The position numbers and the translations under genes are program-made. Below, piece after piece: positions 32,323-53,011 of a stretch of DNA of 64,000 nt (within the stretch, counting starts at the first letter, position 1; the number at the start of each line of letters is the position of its first letter). The notes under the pieces were generated by a model that saw only the letters and a list, made by a program, of their open reading frames with translations, was not told where the DNA came from and ran no database searches. Origin of the DNA: Fistulifera solaris (lineage: Eukaryota; Bacillariophyta; Bacillariophyceae; Naviculales; Stauroneidaceae); contig AP026123.1 of NCBI GenBank assembly GCA_030295235.1, positions 2,418,001-2,482,000 on the forward strand, read 5' to 3'.

Positions 32323-33091
32323 ATGGATGGTGCGTCTGTGGTTGCTAAAAGAAAGCGTGCTGCATTTGCAACACGCAACTAGATCATCGAAATGCAGCTA
32401 CGATATCTTTGAAGGCCTTATCAGAAAGGAATTGGTTTACGCCTGATTCTTCGTTAGATGTACCAGTTCCATTTTTCAAGAGAGAGTATCAGGTTCCTGC
32501 AGATATTACGTCAAGACTATCTACGGAAGAAAGAAGGTTACTATCTAAAGTTATTATATCCCCACGAACGTGCTTTGAAAGGAAAAATCAATCTTTAAAT
32601 CTATCAATATGTAATTCATGTCATAAGTCAAAAGTAAAGCCACAAAAATCAATTGTCAATATTCCCATCGGAAGAGAGCCCGAGAAGTAAAGCCACAAAA
32701 ATCAATTGTCAATATTCCCATCGGAAGAGAGCCCGAGATTTTAGCTTCGTTAAATGATGTTGAGCTTGCTTTAATCACCATGGGAAGAGTTTCACGACAT
32801 ATCTTTACGATTTATGGTGGTGCTCATAAGTCGATGAAGACGTGGCATAAGATGTATGTCAATGATGTTAGTCATACAATTGCGGCGCTGAATACGTTAG
32901 AAGTTGCTATCGCAAGACCTACTATTTTCTGTGTCCTGTCGGGCCCGTTTACTCCTCAACAAAAAGCGAAAGCTTTGAGGATCGTCGCGATTCATTCACG
33001 ATCAACAATCATTCACGGATTCACTTTTACGCCTCATACTAGGCGCAAGCCCACAATCGTACAAAGTGTTTCATTAATTATCCAAGACTGA
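32323..33091 (+). pseudogene. Helitron-like DUF6570 fragment (decayed)
   Basis: ATG 32323 opens RKRAAFATRN, which reaches a TAG. The other frame continues as DHRNAATISLKALSERNWFT, then RLSTEERRLLSKVIISPRTC, LSICNSCHKSKVKPQKSIVN and IPIGREP. After a tandem duplication it resumes as ILASLNDVELALITMGRVSR, HIFTIYGGAHKSMKTWHKMY, then IFCVLSGPFTPQQKAKALR. The C-x2-C, LANGL-like/LNDVE..LI, strand-and-G-G and TGP-like blocks match DUF6570, the region just upstream of the rolling-circle and helicase domains in Helitron proteins. A single base loss, a 53-bp duplication and the absence of the rest of the transposase show it is dead. The family call is from memory of the pattern. Confidence 0.5.
32632..32737 (+). 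repeat. 53-bp perfect tandem duplication
   Basis: Units 32632-32684 and 32685-32737 are identical, starting AAGTAAAGCCACAAAAATC. Because 53 is not a multiple of three, the second copy throws the DUF6570 frame into a stop right at the junction. Deleting one unit restores continuous coding (REP then ILASLND). Perfect identity implies a recent event. Confidence 0.9.
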
Positions 33092-33338
33092 CTTTCTGTC
33101 ACGTGTCATTACGGTACTGCTTGTGCAAGGAAACCTACATTTGATGCTATAGTAAAAACGGATGCGTCTTTTGACAACAAAACGCATGCGACGTTTTTCA
33201 ACATTGTTATGATGCTGTCATAACTAGCAATGAATTGAACTTTGTTGTTACCCTTGTTCATTATTACAATTATCATTATCAACAACGTTAAAGAGAGTTT
33301 GTCTGCAGGGACTGGACTGATTATGAACACGACGAGTG

Positions 33339-36300
33339 ATGTCGGAAGATGAGTATGATGGCATATTCGGGTTTGGTTCTATTATAAATTCATCGACCCA
33401 CGCGGCATGGCTGGAAAACGTCAATGCCTCTTCCTTTGCGGGACGAATGGCTCGCATCCACGGGCAGTATCAGCGCGCGTGGAATTTCCGGTCGGCGACC
33501 GGCTTTACTGCTTTAGGAATTTTAAAAAGCGATGAATCAGTACACGTGATGAATGGAGTGCTCTTCAAAATTCCGGATAGTGTCATTGCCGATTTCGATC
33601 GACGCGAGGTCGGATACGATCGAATTGAAATTCCACAGGATTGTATTGAGCTCTTGGCACCCGAATGTCATGAAAACCCTCAGTTGGTCCACGAATTTGG
33701 TGGCATGCCCAAGAAAGTGTGGATTTACGTCCCTCAGGAGGGCCAGGATGCCGACGAAAATCATCCTCTTCTTCAATCGTACGTCGATACAGTCATGCAA
33801 GGCTGCTTAGAATGGGGTGGACAGCCCATGGCACGAGAATTCGTTGCAACTACCGTTCAATGGAGTCCCTATTTCCTCAACGATACCCCATCGTCCCGGC
33901 GTCCGTGGCTGTTTCGGAAAGAATACGATACGATCGATAAAATTCTCCGCGAGACCCCGTCCACGCATTTTACCGAACGAAAGCACCCCGAAGAGTTCGC
34001 TTCCGCCTTTTTGTCCAACATGCGTGGCATCTGGTCGGTACCGCGGCGCAATACAACGTTTACCGGACGGGATGGAGTTCTTTGCAAATGCATCAGACTC
34101 TCACAACACAATCCAAAAATCGAAGTCGTGGGGATGGGCGGAGTCGGGAAAAGTCAACTATGCACGGAATATTGCTATCGATACTATCCTTCTTACTATG
34201 GACTGGCGATTTGGCTCAACGCCGAAAGTGCGGAAACACTGGCTGCCAATTATCGCCAGCTCATGGCCGATACGACCGATGTCGATGTCAAAGATAAGGA
34301 CGCTGACGAGGTTGTTACCGAAGTCAAAGCCCGTCTGTATCGTCTGAAAGTACCATGGCTTTTGGTATTTGACAATCTGGAGGATCACTCGTTGCTCGAG
34401 AAATTCGTGCCTCGCGGAGGAGCCAGTGGGCACGTTTTAGTTACTTCACGATGGGTGGAATCTGTGAGTTCTGTGACAACGCTCTCCTTGGATTGCTTTG
34501 ACTCCGCTGAATCGGTCGAGTTTCTCTGTCGGTCCGCTGGTGAACGTAACGTACAAGGGAAAGATAACCTAAAGGCCGCCCGAGCGCTGGCTGACCGTTT
34601 GGGGCATTTACCGCTAGCACTCGGTATGGCGGCCGCTTATATGCAGCGATGTGATGTCGCTTGCTCGGAATATTTGAATCGGTATCGTCAAAGTGGTACT
34701 CTGCTCGCCCATCGGGCTAGTAAGCTTGTTGACTATCCGCTAGGAGTGGCTTCGAGTCTCTCGCTCAGTCTGAACGTTATTCAACGGGAAAACAATGAAG
34801 CTTTCGAGCTCCTCCACCTACTAGGTTGGCTTGGACCTGACCAAATTACAAAGGCTCTAATGCGATCTCTGTTAACTGCAAAGTCGGAAAGGAAGAGCAA
34901 GGACAAAGAAATGGCGATGGCAGCCTCTGTGAGGAAGCAGCGCCTACAGAAAGCATGTATATGTTTCTCTCTCACAACATTGTTGGTCGTCAGCGCAGCC
35001 CGACTGTCGAAGCAGCGTTTACGTAACGCAGGTTTTGTGTCGGCTATTTGTGTTGTGTCGACAGTATTTCACTTGTCGAAGAGCTCGAGCGAAGTACCGG
35101 TGAGAACCAGGAAACCATCTTTCACTTCTTTCGTGTACGAGGAAACGGACGAAATCTGGAATATATTGAAATCGTTTTCCATCATTACCGTCAAACATGG
35201 AAAGGGCTCTATGCACCGACTTTTGGCACAAGCTCTCAGGCATGCACAGAGCGAAGATCTAGCTTGCCGAAATCTGGAAATATGTTTACGGGCTGTGCTC
35301 ATGGGATGGACTTTTAAACCAGAGAAGACCGAAACATGGCAAGCTTCTCTTGCCATTTTGGAACACGCAAAGTCTGTGACAATGCACTCTTTTGAACACA
35401 AGACATCGATGCTTGTCGAGACCGCTATGTTATCGAAGGAAATAGGCATACTTGCTACAATGGTTCTGAATCGCTTTGTTGAAGCAGAAAGTGCCTTAGA
35501 GCTCTCGTTGAAGATACTTTGTCAGGCTGAACGGATTACTCATATACACCGCAAAGTGCAGGCCGAGTCGTTGTATGAACTCGGTAGGGTCCTGCGTTAC
35601 CAAGGAAACTTTGAAAAGTCGGAGGAAAAGCTGCGAGAGTCTCTCATGATTCGAAAGAGTCTGAGTCGTCACGATCCTACGATACATCAAGCCATCGCTG
35701 AAACGCTGCATGAGATTGGTATGAATGAAGTGAAGCGGCATTATCTTGATTCTGCTGCATCTTTCTTCCAGCAGGCTCTTGACCTGAAACAAGTCATGGA
35801 TGCTGAATACAGCTTAATGCATAGAGATCAACTAGACGCTAGCTACGCGAAAACATTGCATCAGCTTGCAGCCGTATATGTTGCAAGAAAGCCCCCTTCA
35901 CTAGCCAAAGCCGAGACATTGTTACAGGAAGCGTTGAGTCATAGCACCCAAATAGGTCAACGAGCTGCTACTCTCAAAGAACTAGCTCGGGTTACCATGC
36001 GCCAAGGACTTTTAAATCGTGCGGAACTTTATTTGGCTCAAGCCCTGGAGCTCTACGAAGAGCTTTACGGAGAAAACGCCTCTCACATCAACGTAGCGGC
36101 GGTGAAATTCCAGCAAGGAGCGTTAGAGTCACAGCGCGATAGGTTGGACGAAGCCTGGGTCTGCTTCTCGGACTGCTTACGAATCCGACGCCAGGTGTAT
36201 GCTTATGCTCGCACCCAGTCTGACAACTCCGACGACAATCCTGTCCATCTCGATGTTTCATCAGTTCTTCACGAGTTGGGTCATGTTGCTTTCAATCAGC

Positions 36301-36948
36301 ACAACTTGAAATCCGCGCTCGAAATGCTCAAAGCCGAAAGATCCGTTTTAGAAAGACTTTTGAAATAACACCTACAGAAAGAATCTCGCAAGCTCGTTTA
36401 ACAAACCTTACGTGGCTGAAAAAGTGCTATCAAGCGATTGGTGACGAAGAAGCGGTGCTTCAAATTGCTACGGAGAGAAAGGGCTTGAAGCTTAAAAAGA
36501 AAGGTACCGAAAAAGAATCCAAGCATCATGGAAGCGACAAAAATTTGGAAAAGAGGACTTTGCTCCAAGTCGAATCGTTGCGATGTCGTCTTGTAGTTAG
36601 ACAGTTTGCGCTGACGAGTGATACGGAACGAGCTGCGTTCCATAGCGACGTTCAGACCGTTCTCGCCGAGCTAGATATCGCAATTCGCAATTCCGAGTCT
36701 AATTCTATGCGATCCGGTGCCGAAATATTTCATAACACTGTGACCAAAGCGCTTGCTTCCAAGCAAATGTTCCCCAAAGGAGTCTTGCTGCAAGCTTGTG
36801 ACGATTTGAGGTAAGTAGACAGTCTCTCCTGCGATGTTTTTTGTTAGTTCGTCACCAACAAGTATTCTCCACCTTTTTCATCTTCAATAGGGATGTTCTT
36901 CGTGATCAAGGTATACAAGTCAATGATATGATGCAAAAAGCTTTGTAA
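33339..36948 (+). CDS. STAND NTPase: GGCT-like domain, NB-ARC, TPR array
   Basis: 1,176 residues: exon 1 33339-36810 (one missing A near 36357; without it a stop falls at 36368), 80-nt intron 36811-36890, exon 2 36891-36948. ATG 33339 is preferred to the GTG before it. Residues 5-180 resemble gamma-glutamylcyclotransferase/AIG2 folds: GIFGFGSIINSS (the YGS substrate loop), then NGVLFKIPDSVIADFDRREV and GYDRIEI with the expected catalytic Glu. NB-ARC follows: FTGRD, Walker A VVGMGGVGKS (263-272), Walker B WLLVFDNLED, VLVTSRW, the GLPL equivalent LGHLPLAL and an MHD-like SMHRLLAQALR (624-634). Many TPRs complete it, e.g. ESLYELGRVLRYQGNFEKSE. The layout is that of NLR-like signalling switches. 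Ligand and output are unknown. Residues 539-580 are unusually hydrophobic. Confidence 0.85.
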
Positions 36949-37042: not shown

Positions 37043-37813
37043 TTAGAACATTCCAAACAATTTCTTCTTGTCACCCGGAGCATTTTGTAGTTTTTCCACG
37101 AGAAATTCCTGCACATCACCGCCAAATGCCTTGGCATAGTTTGGTCGTTCCGCGCAGGCTTGCATATAGCTTTGCACTGTGGGCCATTGACTCATGTCGT
37201 GCAGCACCGTCGGAAAGAACTGCAGTGTATACAACAAATAGGACGAAACAGCCACATCGGCACAAGAGAAACCAGCATCGGGAACGAGCCACATTGTCCC
37301 ACTGTTCTTTTGATTGGCTTGCAGAATCTCTTCGAGTCGATTGATGCGTTTGTTGGGCTTGCGCAAGCCGGTATCGTACACTTTGCCTTCGGGTGTCTCC
37401 AAGAAACAAATGGGATCCAGTGATGCGTTGGCCCATACAATCCAGGCCGTGACCGCCGCGGCTGCCGCCGGGCTCATGGCCGCAAATTTCTGGTGCAAAT
37501 ACTGCAGAATGGCACCGGATTCAAAGACCACGACATCGTTGTCGTCGGTAAGACACGGTAGTTGACCGAAGGGGTGGGGATTCTGTTGTAAATTGCCCAT
37601 CGTAAAGTCGACACCCAATTCGAAGCAAGCCCAGTTGACCAACGGAGAGCGAGAACCGGGATGGCCATAAATGGTGACCGGCAAGGCCGTGCTCGATGTA
37701 GCCGCCGAGGAATAAGGTCTCGTCTGCAGCGCGTGATGGCCTTGGTGAGGGCGAAAGGCGTCCGCGGTCGCCAAGAAGAGCACCAAGAATCCAACACGAA
37801 CTAGAAGAGCCAT
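37043..37813 (-). CDS. Plastid-targeted glutathione S-transferase
   Basis: 256 residues, intact, ATG 37813. Conjugates glutathione to electrophiles or reduces peroxides. The N-terminus is a textbook diatom plastid presequence: signal peptide ALLVRVGFLVLFLATADA, then F at +1 (FRPHQGHHALQTRPYSS). The GST thioredoxin fold starts at TIYGHPGSRSPLVNWACFEL with the Ser of GSRS as likely catalytic residue. QLPCLTDDNDVVVFESGAIL provides the cis-Pro and the E-S glutathione contacts. The C-terminal helical domain contains ADVAVSSYLLYTLQFF. Class cannot be assigned confidently. It diverges from the HECT ligase across a 637-base gap. Confidence 0.9.
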   Translation of the reverse strand: MALLVRVGFLVLFLATADAFRPHQGHHALQTRPYSSAATSSTALPVTIYGHPGSRSPLVNWACFELGVDFTMGNLQQNPHPFGQLPCLTDDNDVVVFESGAILQYLHQKFAAMSPAAAAAVTAWIVWANASLDPICFLETPEGKVYDTGLRKPNKRINRLEEILQANQKNSGTMWLVPDAGFSCADVAVSSYLLYTLQFFPTVLHDMSQWPTVQSYMQACAERPNYAKAFGGDVQEFLVEKLQNAPGDKKKLFGMF

Positions 37814-38450
37814 GGTAAATGAATAAGATGGATGGAACAGACGAATGTTGTCTTCTCTTCGCCTTTATGACGATGATGGCTTTATCATTTTTTCGAGAAA
37901 AAAGAGCGATGGAATGTCGCAAAACACGTCATCACCTTGACTATAAACATAAAGTGTATTCACCTTCACTAGACTTTTCCGCGACTGCATTTGAGTCATG
38001 AATAAAAAGATCTTCCGAGGAGGACGACGAGGAGGGTCGTCGTCTCAAAATGCTAAGGATACCGTTTGCCAGCTCGGTAAATATCTTTGACTTTATTGAA
38101 AGACGCTTATCTTGAGCAGCATTTGCAATATACGCCTCGATTGTCTTAACGCTCGATGACTTCCTTTTTCACAGTAGTAAGTACTGTACCAGGTACGTGT
38201 TCACGACTGGATTTCAGTCAAGAGGCTAGCTGCGTTTCTCGTCCTCTCTTTTATTTGAACTCCCTCCTTCATTGAAAGATCTTTTCTCTTTCCTTGCTAT
38301 TATCATTACCTTTTTCCGTTTTCGAAAACTTTATGCACCTCATGGCGCAGCGCCCTTCCTTTTCTTTAGCTGGTGAACTGATTTGCTGTTGCTGACCTTA
38401 CAATTGCTTTCTCAACGTGACATCGAAGCGTCGATCTTTTTCGCAATAGC
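37814..38450. promoter_or_regulatory. Divergent intergenic region (GST / HECT ligase)
   Basis: 637 bases between two start codons on opposite strands. It includes a GAGGACGACGAGGAGG purine tract near 38017 and pyrimidine-rich DNA at 38225-38330 ahead of the HECT gene. No gene is seen; presumed bidirectional promoter region. Confidence 0.4.
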
Positions 38451-45040: not shown

Positions 45041-45499
45041 TCCTTTAAAATTCTAGTTTTGGAAGAAGTTTGTGGATTTGAGTTCAATTCTAGGTTTTCG
45101 TTGTGATTATAAAGACTAAATTTTGACGATATCTACGAAACGCGAATTTTCCGGTTAGAAATGGCCCTCAGTCGCTTTTACCCGTTCACGAGCCGCTGTC
45201 CGTTGTGTACACATTCGTCCACAGCTTAAATGTTCTGATGTCGTGAGTATCAGTCAACAGTACATTAGTTACTCGACGAACATCTTGCCGCGTCGCGGAA
45301 CAAAGGATGTTCTGCATATAATGCAATCCGTCATACGACATCTTCATCACGTTTCATTATTATCGAAAAGCAGAACAACGGCTCGCGGATACCATTCGAC
45401 TCCGTTTCAACGAAATTTTGACGGACAGAATTTTCCCACGCTCGTGAACCATCACACGAATTATGGAGGGTGTGTTGTTGCTCGTCGTCTCACTCCAAG
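45041..45499. promoter_or_regulatory. Spacer upstream of first EamA transporter
   Basis: 459 bases between two plus-strand genes. A short open frame (45243-45503) has no protein-like support. It presumably carries the transporter promoter and 5' leader. Confidence 0.35.
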
Positions 45500-46789
45500 A
45501 TGAAAGGTAACCAAGTCTTCGTGTGGATCCTGTTCGTCAGCTTATTCGATCTCATGCACAGCTGGACCGTTCCTCCGCCTCCTTATTTTCTCAAGAGAAT
45601 CTCGTCTTCGTTTTCGGCATCTTCCAAGAACGCACATCGACTTCCACAACCATCTTCCGACTTGGACGGTCGCCACTTTCATGATTCCGATAGTGAAGAG
45701 CGCTTGAATTTCGAAGATGAACTGGAAGAACAATATACAGAGCTCGTCAAGCTCAACGGAGATGCCGCGGCAGCGACAATCCGTCCCAAGACATATGATG
45801 AGTCCTCGACGGTTTCCGATGTCTTTTGGGCGCGCTTACTCGTTTTGGGCGCGGCTACTTTGTACGGAAGTAGTTTTTCCTTTGTCAAACTCATGGGGGA
45901 AAATGCACCAATGCCCCCGGGTTTGACGAGCACGGTGCGCTTCGGTTTAGCAGCCATCTCGGCGTGTCCGTGTGTGATCACCAGCTTTGGACGACGAAAA
46001 TCGACGGAATTTGCGGCCGTCATGGCCGGCTTGGAAGTGGGCTTGTGGAATTCGATCGGCTACTTGGCACAAGCTATCGGACTTGAAACGACCATGGCCA
46101 GTAAATCGGCCTTTCTTTGTAGTATGGCGGTGGTCATAGTTCCTCTGCTAGATTTTATATTCAAAGGAAAGAAGCTGGCGCCTCGACAAATTCTGGGAGT
46201 CGTGCTCGCCATTATGGGAGTCGGGGCGTTAGAGTTGGGGGATGTTGCTGATACACTGACCGCGGAGAGCTTGATTTCTCAAGGGGATTGGATTAGTATG
46301 TTACAGCCTTTGTTTTTTGGTTTTGGCTTTTGGAGGATGGAAAAGGCGATGCACGATTTTCCGGATCACCCCTTGCGTGTTACGGGAGGTCAACTGTTAG
46401 CCGTTTTTCTAGGATCTGCGTTGTTCACGGTGGTCATGGAATGGGACGACATTGATATACACGAAATGAAAATGTACTTAGCAGACCCTTGGGTATGGAT
46501 GTCACTGGCTTGGACGGGCCTCGTGACGACTGCCTTGAGTATTTATATGGAAACGGTGGCTATGAAATCAATATCAGCCGCCGAAACAACACTACTCATG
46601 TCCTCAGAGCCCGTCACTGGTTCCCTGTTTGCGGCTGTTATTATGGGAGAGCGACTGGGTCCTCATTCGATGATCGGATCTTTCCTCATCTTTCTGAGTT
46701 GTACAATACCCAACTTGAGTAACGAGGTCGTGCAAGGCGTTTTCGATAATGGTAATGCGAGCGAAAAACCTGAAACACGAAAGAAATGA
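45500..46789 (+). CDS. EamA/DMT-family transporter, plastid-type presequence (copy 1)
   Basis: 429 residues, intact, ATG 45500. Drug/metabolite transporter superfamily with about ten membrane spans in two EamA repeats. N-terminal signal peptide KGNQVFVWILFVSLFDLMHS is followed by WTVPPPPYFLKR. W at the +1 position is an accepted variant of the diatom plastid-import signature, so a plastid envelope is the inferred site. Family landmarks: LLVLGAATLYGSSFSFVKLM, GLTSTVRFGLAAISACP, MASKSAFLCSMAVVIVPLLD, LAWTGLVTTALSIYMETVAM, and SAAETTLLMSSEPVTGSLFA. This is the most divergent member of a group of four. The substrate is unknown. Confidence 0.85.
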   Translation: MKGNQVFVWILFVSLFDLMHSWTVPPPPYFLKRISSSFSASSKNAHRLPQPSSDLDGRHFHDSDSEERLNFEDELEEQYTELVKLNGDAAAATIRPKTYDESSTVSDVFWARLLVLGAATLYGSSFSFVKLMGENAPMPPGLTSTVRFGLAAISACPCVITSFGRRKSTEFAAVMAGLEVGLWNSIGYLAQAIGLETTMASKSAFLCSMAVVIVPLLDFIFKGKKLAPRQILGVVLAIMGVGALELGDVADTLTAESLISQGDWISMLQPLFFGFGFWRMEKAMHDFPDHPLRVTGGQLLAVFLGSALFTVVMEWDDIDIHEMKMYLADPWVWMSLAWTGLVTTALSIYMETVAMKSISAAETTLLMSSEPVTGSLFAAVIMGERLGPHSMIGSFLIFLSCTIPNLSNEVVQGVFDNGNASEKPETRKK

Positions 46790-50495: not shown

Positions 50496-51664
50496 GCACG
50501 GTAGACAGGGAACTTTTGAATAGAAAATACAAGACATTTTCATGAGCACAGCACGTGATCATCATTTTGTGGGCGCTTGCATTATTTAATTACAATACAG
50601 AGGTAAAGCAATAACAATGAATACTATTACATGTATTGTTGACCATGGTCTTCGGGCCCGATTCTGACCTAGTAGCGATCGATCGCTAGCTTGGTAAGCA
50701 ATAATTGTCGCCATCACAATGAGCAACTGCACTTTTATCTGCAACGTTTTGCAACGTACTTAGACACGTGCCGCATGCCTCAATTATTTATAATGTCGAA
50801 AATCCTTGCGAATTTTAGTAATCGAGACTCACTATACGAATGAAGTGTAGATTACCTTTTTCCACCACGACTGCACTTCAGTCATGAATAACAACTCTTT
50901 GCTACGTACAAAAATCGAGAGGAGTACACTACAGTATGTTCGAAGTCAGATGTCAGCGACTAAGACCACTCACCGTTTGCGAAGTATAGAATCACGTCAC
51001 GTGTGCGTTGCACACTTTTAGTTATTAGTCAAGTCATAGTCTCGTAATAATAGTTCGACGATACCTTAGCCGACCAACAGTGTTATCCTTAACCCTTTTG
51101 GAAATAAAGTCTAGCCGCCTATCCGGCGTCCGCCAAATTCGATTGCAGATCGGCACGCGAGGCAACACGTCGAACTTCGAACCAAATATTCGAAATCGAC
51201 CATGTCTTGAACCAATACCAGGTAAGAGACATACGAGATACGCTGGTAGAGACTTTCTAGATTATGTTTTCAAGAGAGCCTTTAGATTGCGTTTTTCGTC
51301 CGTGACTGCAATCAGCAATTGTGGGTTGTGGGGCTGGGGGATTCTCGAAGTGGGACTCTCTCTTATGTAGCTTTTCAGAAGATGACAAATAATAGCAAAT
51401 AGCAAGGAAAAGGAAAAGGAAAAAGCAGTCAACAGTCGGCATATGCCCCCGTCTTACTTATGGTGAATAATGACGAACTATCAGGGGCAATAGTCCTCCA
51501 GCAGGAAACATGTCTCCCTTACTTGCCACACTTTCTGCTCACATCTCACATTCTTGGGGTCCGAAACGAGCGAAAGCACGCATCGAGCAAAAGATTCATG
51601 TTTGTCATTCGACATCTTATAATTCCATTCAGCAATCATCTTCAATCTTCTTTGCTGTCAAATA
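50496..51664. promoter_or_regulatory. Spacer with dispersed elements upstream of transporter copy 3
   Basis: 1,169 bases without a gene. It contains the 27-base element shared with 15202 (50846-50872) and an inverted copy of the stem-loop family (CCACGACTGC at 50863 through CAGTCATG). A 13-mer, CGAAGTGGGACTC, lies at 51346-51358 and recurs upstream of copy 4. An A/G-rich run spans 51400-51425. Confidence 0.45.
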
Positions 51665-53011
51665 ATGTGTTTGCCAAGTTCTTGCAACGAGGTACACGAT
51701 ATTGAGGCCGCGTTGGTCCTTCCCATCGACGATGATAAAGAGGATGTAAAAGCCGATGACGAGAAGTTGAACGAGAAATTGAATGGCTCCGACGGCACAA
51801 TAGAGCAACGGCGAAAAGGCGATGTTTACCGAGCTCGGGCACTGATTCTTCTGGTTGCTACACTTTACGGTAGTAACTTCTCTCTTGTGAAAATGATGGG
51901 AGAGGATACTCCTTTGTCGGTCGGTATGACCAGCACGTTACGATTTGGATTAGCCGCTATCGCGACAAGTCCTTGGCTGTTTTCCAACTTTAATCAAATA
52001 CGAATGAAATGGTCGACGTCTCCCGCTTCGGCGGCGATGGTGGCGGGTTTCGAGGTCGGAATATGGAATTGTATCGGCTACATTGCTCAGGCGGTAGGTT
52101 TGAAAACGACATTGGCGAGCAAGTCGGCCTTCTTCTGCAGCATGGCTGTTGTTGTCGTTCCACTCCTCGACTTCTTGTTCAAAGGTCAAACGATCCATTT
52201 CAATCAGATTGCCGGTCTTGTTCTAGCAATTATCGGCGTTGGTGCACTCGAGCTTGGCGACATGGACTTTGCATCAGGGACCCTTTTGTCGTATGGTGAT
52301 CTTGTGTCGCTAATACAGCCGCTAGCATTCGGATTGGGTATTTGGCGCATGGAAACGGCAGTGAGAAAATATCCTAATCAGGCAATGCGGGCAACAGCAG
52401 CACAACTGAGTATTGTATTCCTTGGGTCCGCAATTTTCTGCACTCTTTCTGGAGATGGTGGGTTTGATAGTACGCAGCTAAAAAGCATACTTACAAAACC
52501 TATGGTGCTTGCACCGCTACTCTGGACTGGTCTGATAACGACAGCATTGACTATTTATATGGAATCGGTCGCAATGAAGACTCTTTCGGCAGCGGAGACT
52601 ACTCTTTTACTTTCAACCGAACCCTTTTCCGGATCTTTATTCGCTGTCACTCTTATGGGGGAGCGTCTTGGATCAAATGCTTTGATTGGATCGGGCATGA
52701 TCCTGATCAGCTGCATTGTTTCGACCTTCGACGTATATAAGATCGGATGGCCCTTCAAAAGAACCAAGAAACGACGCATAATAGTTCCAGCGATCTTGTC
52801 ACCCTTCCTTTTCTTGATGGGAGTTGCTCTTCACATGGTGGTAGTTGTAATGAAACAACTTGACCTCATAAGATATCTAGAAATAATCTATCCGAAATCG
52901 CTATTTTTTGGAAATTTACCGGCGATCCACCAAAATGAATTGGGAGATAGTTGTTGTCGTAAGGCGTGGCCGCTTTCTCTCTCTTTTTGTCTGTATCACG
53001 TTAGCCGTTAG
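51665..53011 (+). CDS. EamA/DMT-family transporter without presequence (copy 3)
   Basis: 448 residues, intact, ATG 51665. Two EamA repeats as in copies 2 and 4 (ALILLVATLYGSNFSLVKMM, LASKSAFFCSMAVVVVPLLD, TALTIYMESVAMKTLSAAET). The N-terminus is MCLPSSCNEVHDIEAALVLP followed by an acidic stretch. There is no signal peptide, so a different membrane from copies 1 and 2 is expected unless an upstream exon is missed. The C-terminus is longer than in its paralogues and adds IIVPAILSPFLFLMGVALHM, one extra hydrophobic segment, then a Cys-containing tail. That extension may be read-through past the ancestral stop. Confidence 0.85.
   Translation: MCLPSSCNEVHDIEAALVLPIDDDKEDVKADDEKLNEKLNGSDGTIEQRRKGDVYRARALILLVATLYGSNFSLVKMMGEDTPLSVGMTSTLRFGLAAIATSPWLFSNFNQIRMKWSTSPASAAMVAGFEVGIWNCIGYIAQAVGLKTTLASKSAFFCSMAVVVVPLLDFLFKGQTIHFNQIAGLVLAIIGVGALELGDMDFASGTLLSYGDLVSLIQPLAFGLGIWRMETAVRKYPNQAMRATAAQLSIVFLGSAIFCTLSGDGGFDSTQLKSILTKPMVLAPLLWTGLITTALTIYMESVAMKTLSAAETTLLLSTEPFSGSLFAVTLMGERLGSNALIGSGMILISCIVSTFDVYKIGWPFKRTKKRRIIVPAILSPFLFLMGVALHMVVVVMKQLDLIRYLEIIYPKSLFFGNLPAIHQNELGDSCCRKAWPLSLSFCLYHVSR

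Follow-up and report, generated by a model that had tools for sequence, protein, structure and literature searches.

A gene of the diatom Fistulifera solaris, at positions 33339 to 36948 (+) of a 64,000-nucleotide stretch of contig AP026123.1 (hereafter the window; C3:2418001-2482000 of a 51.7 Mb assembly), is predicted to encode a protein in which a gamma-glutamyl cyclotransferase (GGCT) domain is followed by an NB-ARC domain with its winged helix and by an array of tetratricopeptide repeats (TPRs). On the grounds of sequence and structural models, the GGCT domain is in the N-terminal effector position of a STAND protein, and the best reading of the whole, to which we give about an even chance, is that of a single-chain, STAND-gated gamma-glutamyl cyclotransferase acting near a membrane. 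Among proteins, FisN_20Hh102 of F. solaris (1176 residues, here P0001) matches the gene best, with 98% identity over residues 1-480. The features of the gene are as follows.

33339..36948 (+): whole gene, exon 1 at 33339-36810 and exon 2 at 36891-36948, from the reading frame and comparison with P0001
33339..33953 (+): GGCT-fold domain, residues 1-205, from the AlphaFold2 model, fold matches and a below-cut-off match to NCBIfam NF049903
33606..33608 (+): Glu90, putative catalytic acid in D-R-R-E-V-G-Y, invariant in the family alignment
33954..34058 (+): conserved linker with RKHPEEF, from pattern counts
34059..34868 (+): NB-ARC domain, residues about 241-510, from Pfam and motifs
34131..34154 (+): Walker A motif, GMGGVGKS
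34359..34385 (+): Walker B motif, LLVFDNLED
34599..34643 (+): GLPL-type motif, LGHLPLAL
34953..35009 (+): first hydrophobic segment, residues 539-557, scoring 1.74 on the Kyte-Doolittle scale across 19 residues in P0001
35028..35075 (+): weaker second hydrophobic segment, residues about 564-579, preceded by a basic loop; below 1.6 in F. solaris, placed from the family pattern
35208..35225 (+): MHD-like motif, SMHRLL
35406..36359 (+): TPR array, from residue about 690, from TPR families
36811..36890 (+): GT-AG intron, ends read by eye; the join agrees with the C-terminal end of P0001

Domain organization of the protein

AlphaFold2 modelled residues 1-214 as a GGCT fold with pLDDT 92.1 and pTM 0.89, and the fold matches in the PDB (Foldseek, VIA) were human GGCT, ChaC2, YkqA and AIG2-like proteins, in agreement with the original prediction, which had recognized a GGCT-like fold at the N-terminus from the letters of the sequence. 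The letters that it named (FGFGSI and FDRREVGYDR) are present, and the expected glutamate, Glu90, is found in all the 116 rows of the family alignment with a letter there (4 of the 120 are gapped). In the Gly-Ser binding loop, Gly13 is kept in 101/101 and Ser14 in 100/101 of the rows with letters (of 120). When bacterial relatives are included (GGCT alignment A1, 70 rows), R89, E90 and Y93 are still invariant (70/70), and R187, R188, P189 and W190 occur in at least 90% of the rows. A catalytic role of Glu90 is presumed from general knowledge of the GGCT family, and we take the D-x-R-E-x-G-Y core to resemble that of ChaC.

Profile searches bore out the assignment only in part. The domain matches the NCBIfam model of the FTN_0599-family GGCT (NF049903) at E 3.3e-9, but scores below the cut-off of this model and also below that of Pfam GGACT. 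A Pfam scan of the full protein gave no GGCT match, and the window domain did not match Pfam ChaC (PF04752), GGACT being the only family listed for it, while 1 of the 70 A1 rows matches ChaC. Because Pfam stays below threshold, the assignment rests on the fold, the conservation and the below-cut-off NCBIfam match. All 70 A1 members match NF049903 at E<=0.1; judging from sequence, the nearest named family is the FTN_0599 GGCT, of which the window domain is a relative and not a member. A search of PDB sequences with the domain profile returned only an AIG2-like protein (E 0.0053), and a looser limit yielded nothing useful.

After the GGCT domain, Pfam recognizes NB-ARC at 34.8 bits (against a cut-off of 23.5) together with TPR_12, TPR_10 and TPR_2, three TPR families that likewise score above cut-off, as expected from the original prediction. 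The Walker A, Walker B and GLPL motifs are also intact, with Lys271, Asp345, Asn346 and Pro425 each present in 120/120 rows; the motif described as MHD-like, however, reads M-H-R throughout the family, His being found in 110 of 113 rows and Arg replacing Asp in all 113. The linker pattern R[RK]HPE[ED][FY] occurs in 116 of 129 family members and in none of 80 bacterial GGCT loci (plus-strand frames). The model of the full protein is similar to Apaf-1, to plant NRC receptors and to a STAND-TPR protein of solved structure.

A hydrophobic insert in the winged-helix region

The hydrophobic segments of the winged-helix region had been missed by the original prediction. They are found in an insert that is located between the 'GPDQITK' stretch of the winged helix and the winged-helix end, and whose median identity to P0001 is 13% (91 proteins), compared with 58.6% for NB-ARC and 62.5% for the winged-helix end. 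With a hydrophobic segment defined as 19 residues at Kyte-Doolittle >=1.6, the insert contains two segments in 57, one in 43 and none in 20 of 120 proteins, and 103 of the 120 have none outside it. When the region was set by its distance from Walker A, at least one segment was found in 103/119 family members and in 2/34 control NB-ARC/TPR proteins (the measurable ones among 39 NB-ARC/TPR rows lying past the score gap described below); at a looser threshold of 1.3, the figures for two or more segments were 102/119 and 1/34. The loop separating the two best segments has a median length of 10, and its charge is net positive in 94 of the 96 proteins measured (out of 127) and net negative in none, the flanking patterns not being found in the other 31. 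Loss of identity with hydropathy kept is the behaviour of a membrane segment. The hydrophobic segments on either side of the basic loop suggest membrane association.

Distribution and origin of the fusion

Out of 7995 scored candidates, a protein search gave 1550 matches at E<=0.001, and the best 120 of them were used; a second search (best 120 of 164) added 9 members, bringing the top homologues examined to 129. The GGCT motif followed by Walker A is present in 123 of these, a share that applies to the top matches and not to the other 1430. Among these homologues, the domain order described in the original prediction is kept across diatoms. The GGCT motif pattern is lacking in P0079, P0084, P0098 and P0115, and the Walker A pattern in P0030 and P0249. 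Among the matches listed, the diatom labels are Fistulifera, Seminavis, Mayamaea, Thalassiosira, Cyclotella, Stephanocyclus, Conticribra, Nitzschia, Cylindrotheca, Skeletonema and Attheya, and the dinoflagellate labels are Polarella, with both motifs, and Prorocentrum, whose model is without the GGCT motif and whose match starts inside the domain. P0096, one of the distant members, has no label other than that of a EukProt entry, and no Phaeodactylum name occurs among the best 120 of the 1550 matches.

Six proteins with MMETSP labels (P0013, P0032, P0041, P0048, P0056 and P0069) contain both motifs within one protein. MMETSP is a transcriptome project, and this evidence, which consists of labels, speaks against separate transcripts for the two parts, the outcome that the original prediction had named as one that would refute it. 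A chimera or two separate genes were rejected on the basis of these single proteins and of the fusion in 123 of the 129 homologues examined. In the second search, the scores fall abruptly from 1.7e-60 to 1e-17, and the GGCT motif is absent from all 39 rows listed past this gap, from E 1e-17 on.

A tree was built from 113 GGCT domains, namely 53 fused (every second one passing the motif filter), 43 bacterial (from the 80 loci), 16 others and one F. solaris paralogue. The 53 fused domains group, with support 100/99, with four rows labelled standalone. Among the four, P0179 continues into Walker A, the fusion linker is present in P0167 and, judging by its start, in P0172, and P0190 has a linker-like stretch; from their sequences, all four look like fragments of fusions. 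With the labels as given, the tree needs three changes for the character 'fused', and 0% of the bootstrap trees need only one, because these four fragments are labelled standalone; a single origin of the fusion is the simple reading of the sequence data, compatible with the well-supported branches. The nearest rows outside the fused clade are mostly proteobacterial, with moderate support (87/88 and 89/91), and the standalone F. solaris paralogue (C4:501649) falls outside it, on a long branch.

Two other sources of the fusion were considered. A bacterial fused ancestor was not found, Walker A being present in the GGCT frame of none of the 80 loci read of 85 raised by scanning one conserved stretch, a search that is not exhaustive. 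As for a virus-borne copy, the three viral-contig loci match only from residue 231 or 265 on, within or past the NB-ARC part; what precedes it in their frames looks, by eye, like other domains or ones that were not recognized, such as a trypsin-like start before the NB-ARC part in L023 and a TIR-like start in L024. As a separate observation, four bacterial stop-to-stop frames with a GGCT match (L039 and L051-L053) are 471 to 743 codons long, and L039 appears by eye to be two tandem GGCT domains.

Gene structure and state of the assembly

The ATG at 33339 lies inside an open frame at 33327-36368 (+), and the gene read against P0001 has a second exon that supplies the last 18 codons and the stop; given this exon, the extent of the gene in the original prediction is correct. 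Compared with the protein letters of P0001, the window has a missing T and an extra A at about 34080-34118, which cancel each other near residues 249-262, and lacks one base near 36361 (residue ~1008), which produces an early stop at 36366-36368. These three indels, inferred from protein letters and all within short homopolymers, look like assembly errors, because P0001 and the 86%-identical P0002 both read through the sites.

On contig C4, residues 1-1176 are encoded by a second copy, split into three pieces that are 92-95% identical and with the intron in the same position. Its frame also changes near residue 249, and its DNA shows the last two of the three window indels as length differences. 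The same homopolymer indel near residue 249 is apparently present in both subgenome copies (window about 34080 and L006 about 3767). Other genes in the assembly may contain false frame shifts as well. The F. solaris genome is allodiploid, and from their paired gene copies, C3 and C4 are probably homoeologous contigs.

Copy number and selection

A GGCT search of the genome located the fusion at two loci only, one each on C3 and C4, while a Pfam search found at least eight NB-ARC loci. No GGCT domain was seen on reading the frames of the other six (L009-L013 and L016, on C7, C8, C15 and C16), which apparently form three homoeologous pairs and have long N-terminal parts and TPR-like stretches.

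Between the two homoeologues, the ratio of nonsynonymous to synonymous substitution rates (dN/dS) is 0.14 over 1145 codons, with values of 0.11 for GGCT, 0.03 for NB-ARC, 0.21 for the insert and 0.21 for the winged-helix end plus TPR, which is, at sequence level, purifying selection. Median TPR identity to P0001 is 52.7%, vs 58.6% for NB-ARC. The expanded, diversifying gene family that is usual for NLRs, if not strictly defining, was not found here. Because of the one copy per subgenome, the conserved repeats and the purifying selection, a conserved stress or redox switch fits better than a fast-evolving pathogen receptor.

Possible function

If the protein is indeed a STAND-gated cyclotransferase, the ADP-bound switch and the TPRs would hold the GGCT enzyme off at rest, until a ligand or partner bound to the TPRs opened the switch. 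Exchange of ADP for ATP, probably with clustering, would follow, and the GGCT domains, once clustered, would release 5-oxoproline from glutathione or other gamma-glutamyl compounds near a membrane. The resulting drop of the local glutathione pool could lead to stress acclimation or to a decision on cell fate. That the gene is present once per subgenome and evolves slowly suggests that the signal is a conserved physiological one, and not one for a diversified set of pathogen detectors.

Several observations weigh against this reading. As for the enzyme, the domain alone scores 15.6 bits with Pfam GGACT (cut-off 22.8, E 0.025), and its 36.6 bits with NF049903 are to be compared with the cut-off of 480 of that narrow model; the motif pattern is absent in 7 of the 80 bacterial relatives, and some types of GGCT enzymes do not act on glutathione. 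In addition, the genome carries paired matches to separate GGCT-type families, so that most glutathione degradation need not be due to the fused enzyme. As for the membrane, only one segment reaches 1.6 in F. solaris, none does in P0002 and none in the insert of 20 of the 120 proteins, and at 1.3 segments elsewhere are also common (66/119 family members, 24/34 controls). AlphaFold2 gave low confidence at 559-587 and one long helix at 505-559, so that a membrane hairpin is at most a candidate. Finally, the side on which the basic loop would put the switch, according to the positive-inside rule, is the non-cytosolic one, an awkward and unexpected place for it.

The chief rival to a gated enzymatic output, rather unlikely in our judgement, is a sensory role, in which the GGCT domain would bind glutathione or a gamma-glutamyl metabolite, perhaps with slow turnover, and report the thiol pool to the STAND switch, with oligomerization, membrane action of the hydrophobic insert or TPR recruitment as the output. 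This role fits the same conservation data, and the insert, with its mostly positive loop (94/96), could itself be the output, as the coiled-coil domains of plant NLRs are described as forming ion-permeable pores (PMC10952240). However, the putative catalytic residues, Glu90 above all (116/116), show no drift, and the usual order in NLRs is an N-terminal output with C-terminal repeats that bind the ligand (PMC12258605). It is also conceivable, if doubtful, that the substrate is not glutathione but gamma-glutamyl amines or peptides, or a modified protein, and that the switch controls that pathway and not the redox state; the nearest named family, that of the FTN_0599 protein, is linked to glutathione use, and this, like the presumably ChaC-like core, argues against it.

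The original prediction had seen an NLR-type switch, and in its architecture, like that of Apaf-1, plant NRCs and the STAND-TPR protein, this stands. A bona fide immune or cell-death receptor, in which a pathogen or damage ligand on the TPRs would cause glutathione depletion and death, is nevertheless unlikely. In its favour, NB-ARC is preferentially followed by TPR in fungal NLRs, in which enzyme-type N-terminal domains occur (PMC4986451, PMC12258605), and CHAC1 has been called a key stress-linked enzyme (PMC12756093); the idea is weakened by the fact that no more than two of the at least eight NB-ARC loci, one on each homoeologous contig, have the fusion, by repeats whose identity, so close to that of NB-ARC, gives no sign of a fast-changing sensor, and by the low dN/dS of the winged-helix end and TPR part. 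These last two alternatives, on substrate and on immunity, overlap the preferred reading of a gated cyclotransferase, so the likelihoods given here do not sum to one. As for the fusion being an assembly or gene-model artefact, or the gene being in decay, three short indels do shift or end the assembled frame, and the C4 copy has its frame shift near residue 249; but the same fusion recurs in nearly all homologues examined, six of them with transcriptome-project labels, the homoeologues are under constraint, and P0001 reads through, which makes this explanation extremely improbable.

Starting from the gated cyclotransferase, we tentatively propose, as a possibility well short of an even chance, a membrane-tethered STAND switch that destroys the thiol pool: the NB-ARC ring would assemble the GGCT enzymes, the hydrophobic hairpin of the winged-helix region would anchor them, and the glutathione level would decide between acclimation and death, in a widespread algal family. 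Known outputs of NLR-type proteins include pores, NAD cleavage, lipases and nucleosidases. If true, the proposal would add a new type of NLR output and provide a candidate gene for the 'death threshold' of glutathione that has been proposed for diatoms; a glutathione-type enzyme at the output place of an NLR, present across diatoms and in at least one dinoflagellate, would link sensing directly to the redox buffer of the cell. In Phaeodactylum, the chloroplast glutathione redox potential becomes oxidized before cells are committed to dying or surviving, the glutathione redox state early after stress separates dying from surviving cells, and little is said to be known of the death machinery in such algae (PMC6682412). 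For these reasons, the fusion family is a candidate for the control of death and survival in diatoms related to Phaeodactylum.

Neighbouring genes and other GGCT-type loci

Tail to tail with the fusion gene, at 37046-37864 (-) in the window, is a glutathione S-transferase-like gene (GST_N, E 8.4e-8), into which the C4 region aligns at 90%. Upstream, at 32627-33088 (+), fragment-like frames give a weak match to DUF6570 (E 1.5e-4, just below cut-off), a domain known from Helitron-type elements. Two EamA-type transporter genes are found at 45422-46786 and 51623-53008 (+), with a spacing of about 5 kb.

Elsewhere in the genome, there is a standalone GGCT-like pair, composed of a 306-codon frame at C4:501649 (L003/L007) and a copy split over two frames at C3:546118-546632 (L004/L005/L008). 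L106 and L107 (C2 and C1) match ChaC at E 6.5e-7 and 8.0e-7, with internal stops and no clear active-site motif in these matches, and L108 and L109 (C38 and C39) match GGACT at E 3.0e-19 and 1.5e-18.

Comparison with known systems

As far as the GGCT domain is concerned, the FTN_0599-type GGCT 'ChaC' and the standalone GGCTs of proteobacteria have the fold and the active-site residues in common with the fused domain. Both differ in being standalone, and 5 of the 70 A1 rows match a twin-arginine translocation (TAT) signal model. RipAY of Ralstonia solanacearum has, to our knowledge, no NB-ARC or TPR. It is a ChaC-related glutathione-degrading enzyme, partner-activated by thioredoxin (PMC4959522), and it shows, by analogy, that a GGCT-type fold can be gated by a partner; being an injected bacterial effector, it is an analogy for gating only. 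For the Francisella FTN_0599 protein, there is genetic support for glutathione use (PMC7340319).

As for the switch, the NB-ARC/TPR proteins of stramenopiles have the same NB-ARC and TPR parts, and are described as expanded by tandem duplication and exon-shuffled (PMC11378527); the fusion gene, unlike these, is single copy per subgenome and has a GGCT domain. One NB-ARC/TPR protein, Thaps3_22882, a possible member of the fusion family, is reported in a proteome of T. pseudonana (PMC5599023). The next-nearest NB-ARC/TPR proteins, past the score gap, are the TPR proteins of the FxSxx-COOH system (Streptomyces) and related STANDs, which are without the GGCT motif in 39/39 rows listed, and the hydrophobic insert is absent, at the 1.6 threshold, from 32 of the 34 controls.

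Plant TNP proteins (TIR-NB-ARC-TPR) and fungal NLRs with patatin, PNP_UDP or sesB-like N-termini likewise consist of an N-terminal effector, an NB domain and, in part, TPRs, but their N-terminal domain is other than GGCT. The words 'cyclotransferase' and 'AIG2' are absent from the main texts of the fungal NLR literature compared. No description of a GGCT/NB-ARC fusion was found in the literature searched, which misses most subscription papers, and the original prediction had likewise known of none. What is known, therefore, is the STAND/NLR-like architecture; what appears to be new is a GGCT enzyme in that place, together with an unusual hydrophobic insert.

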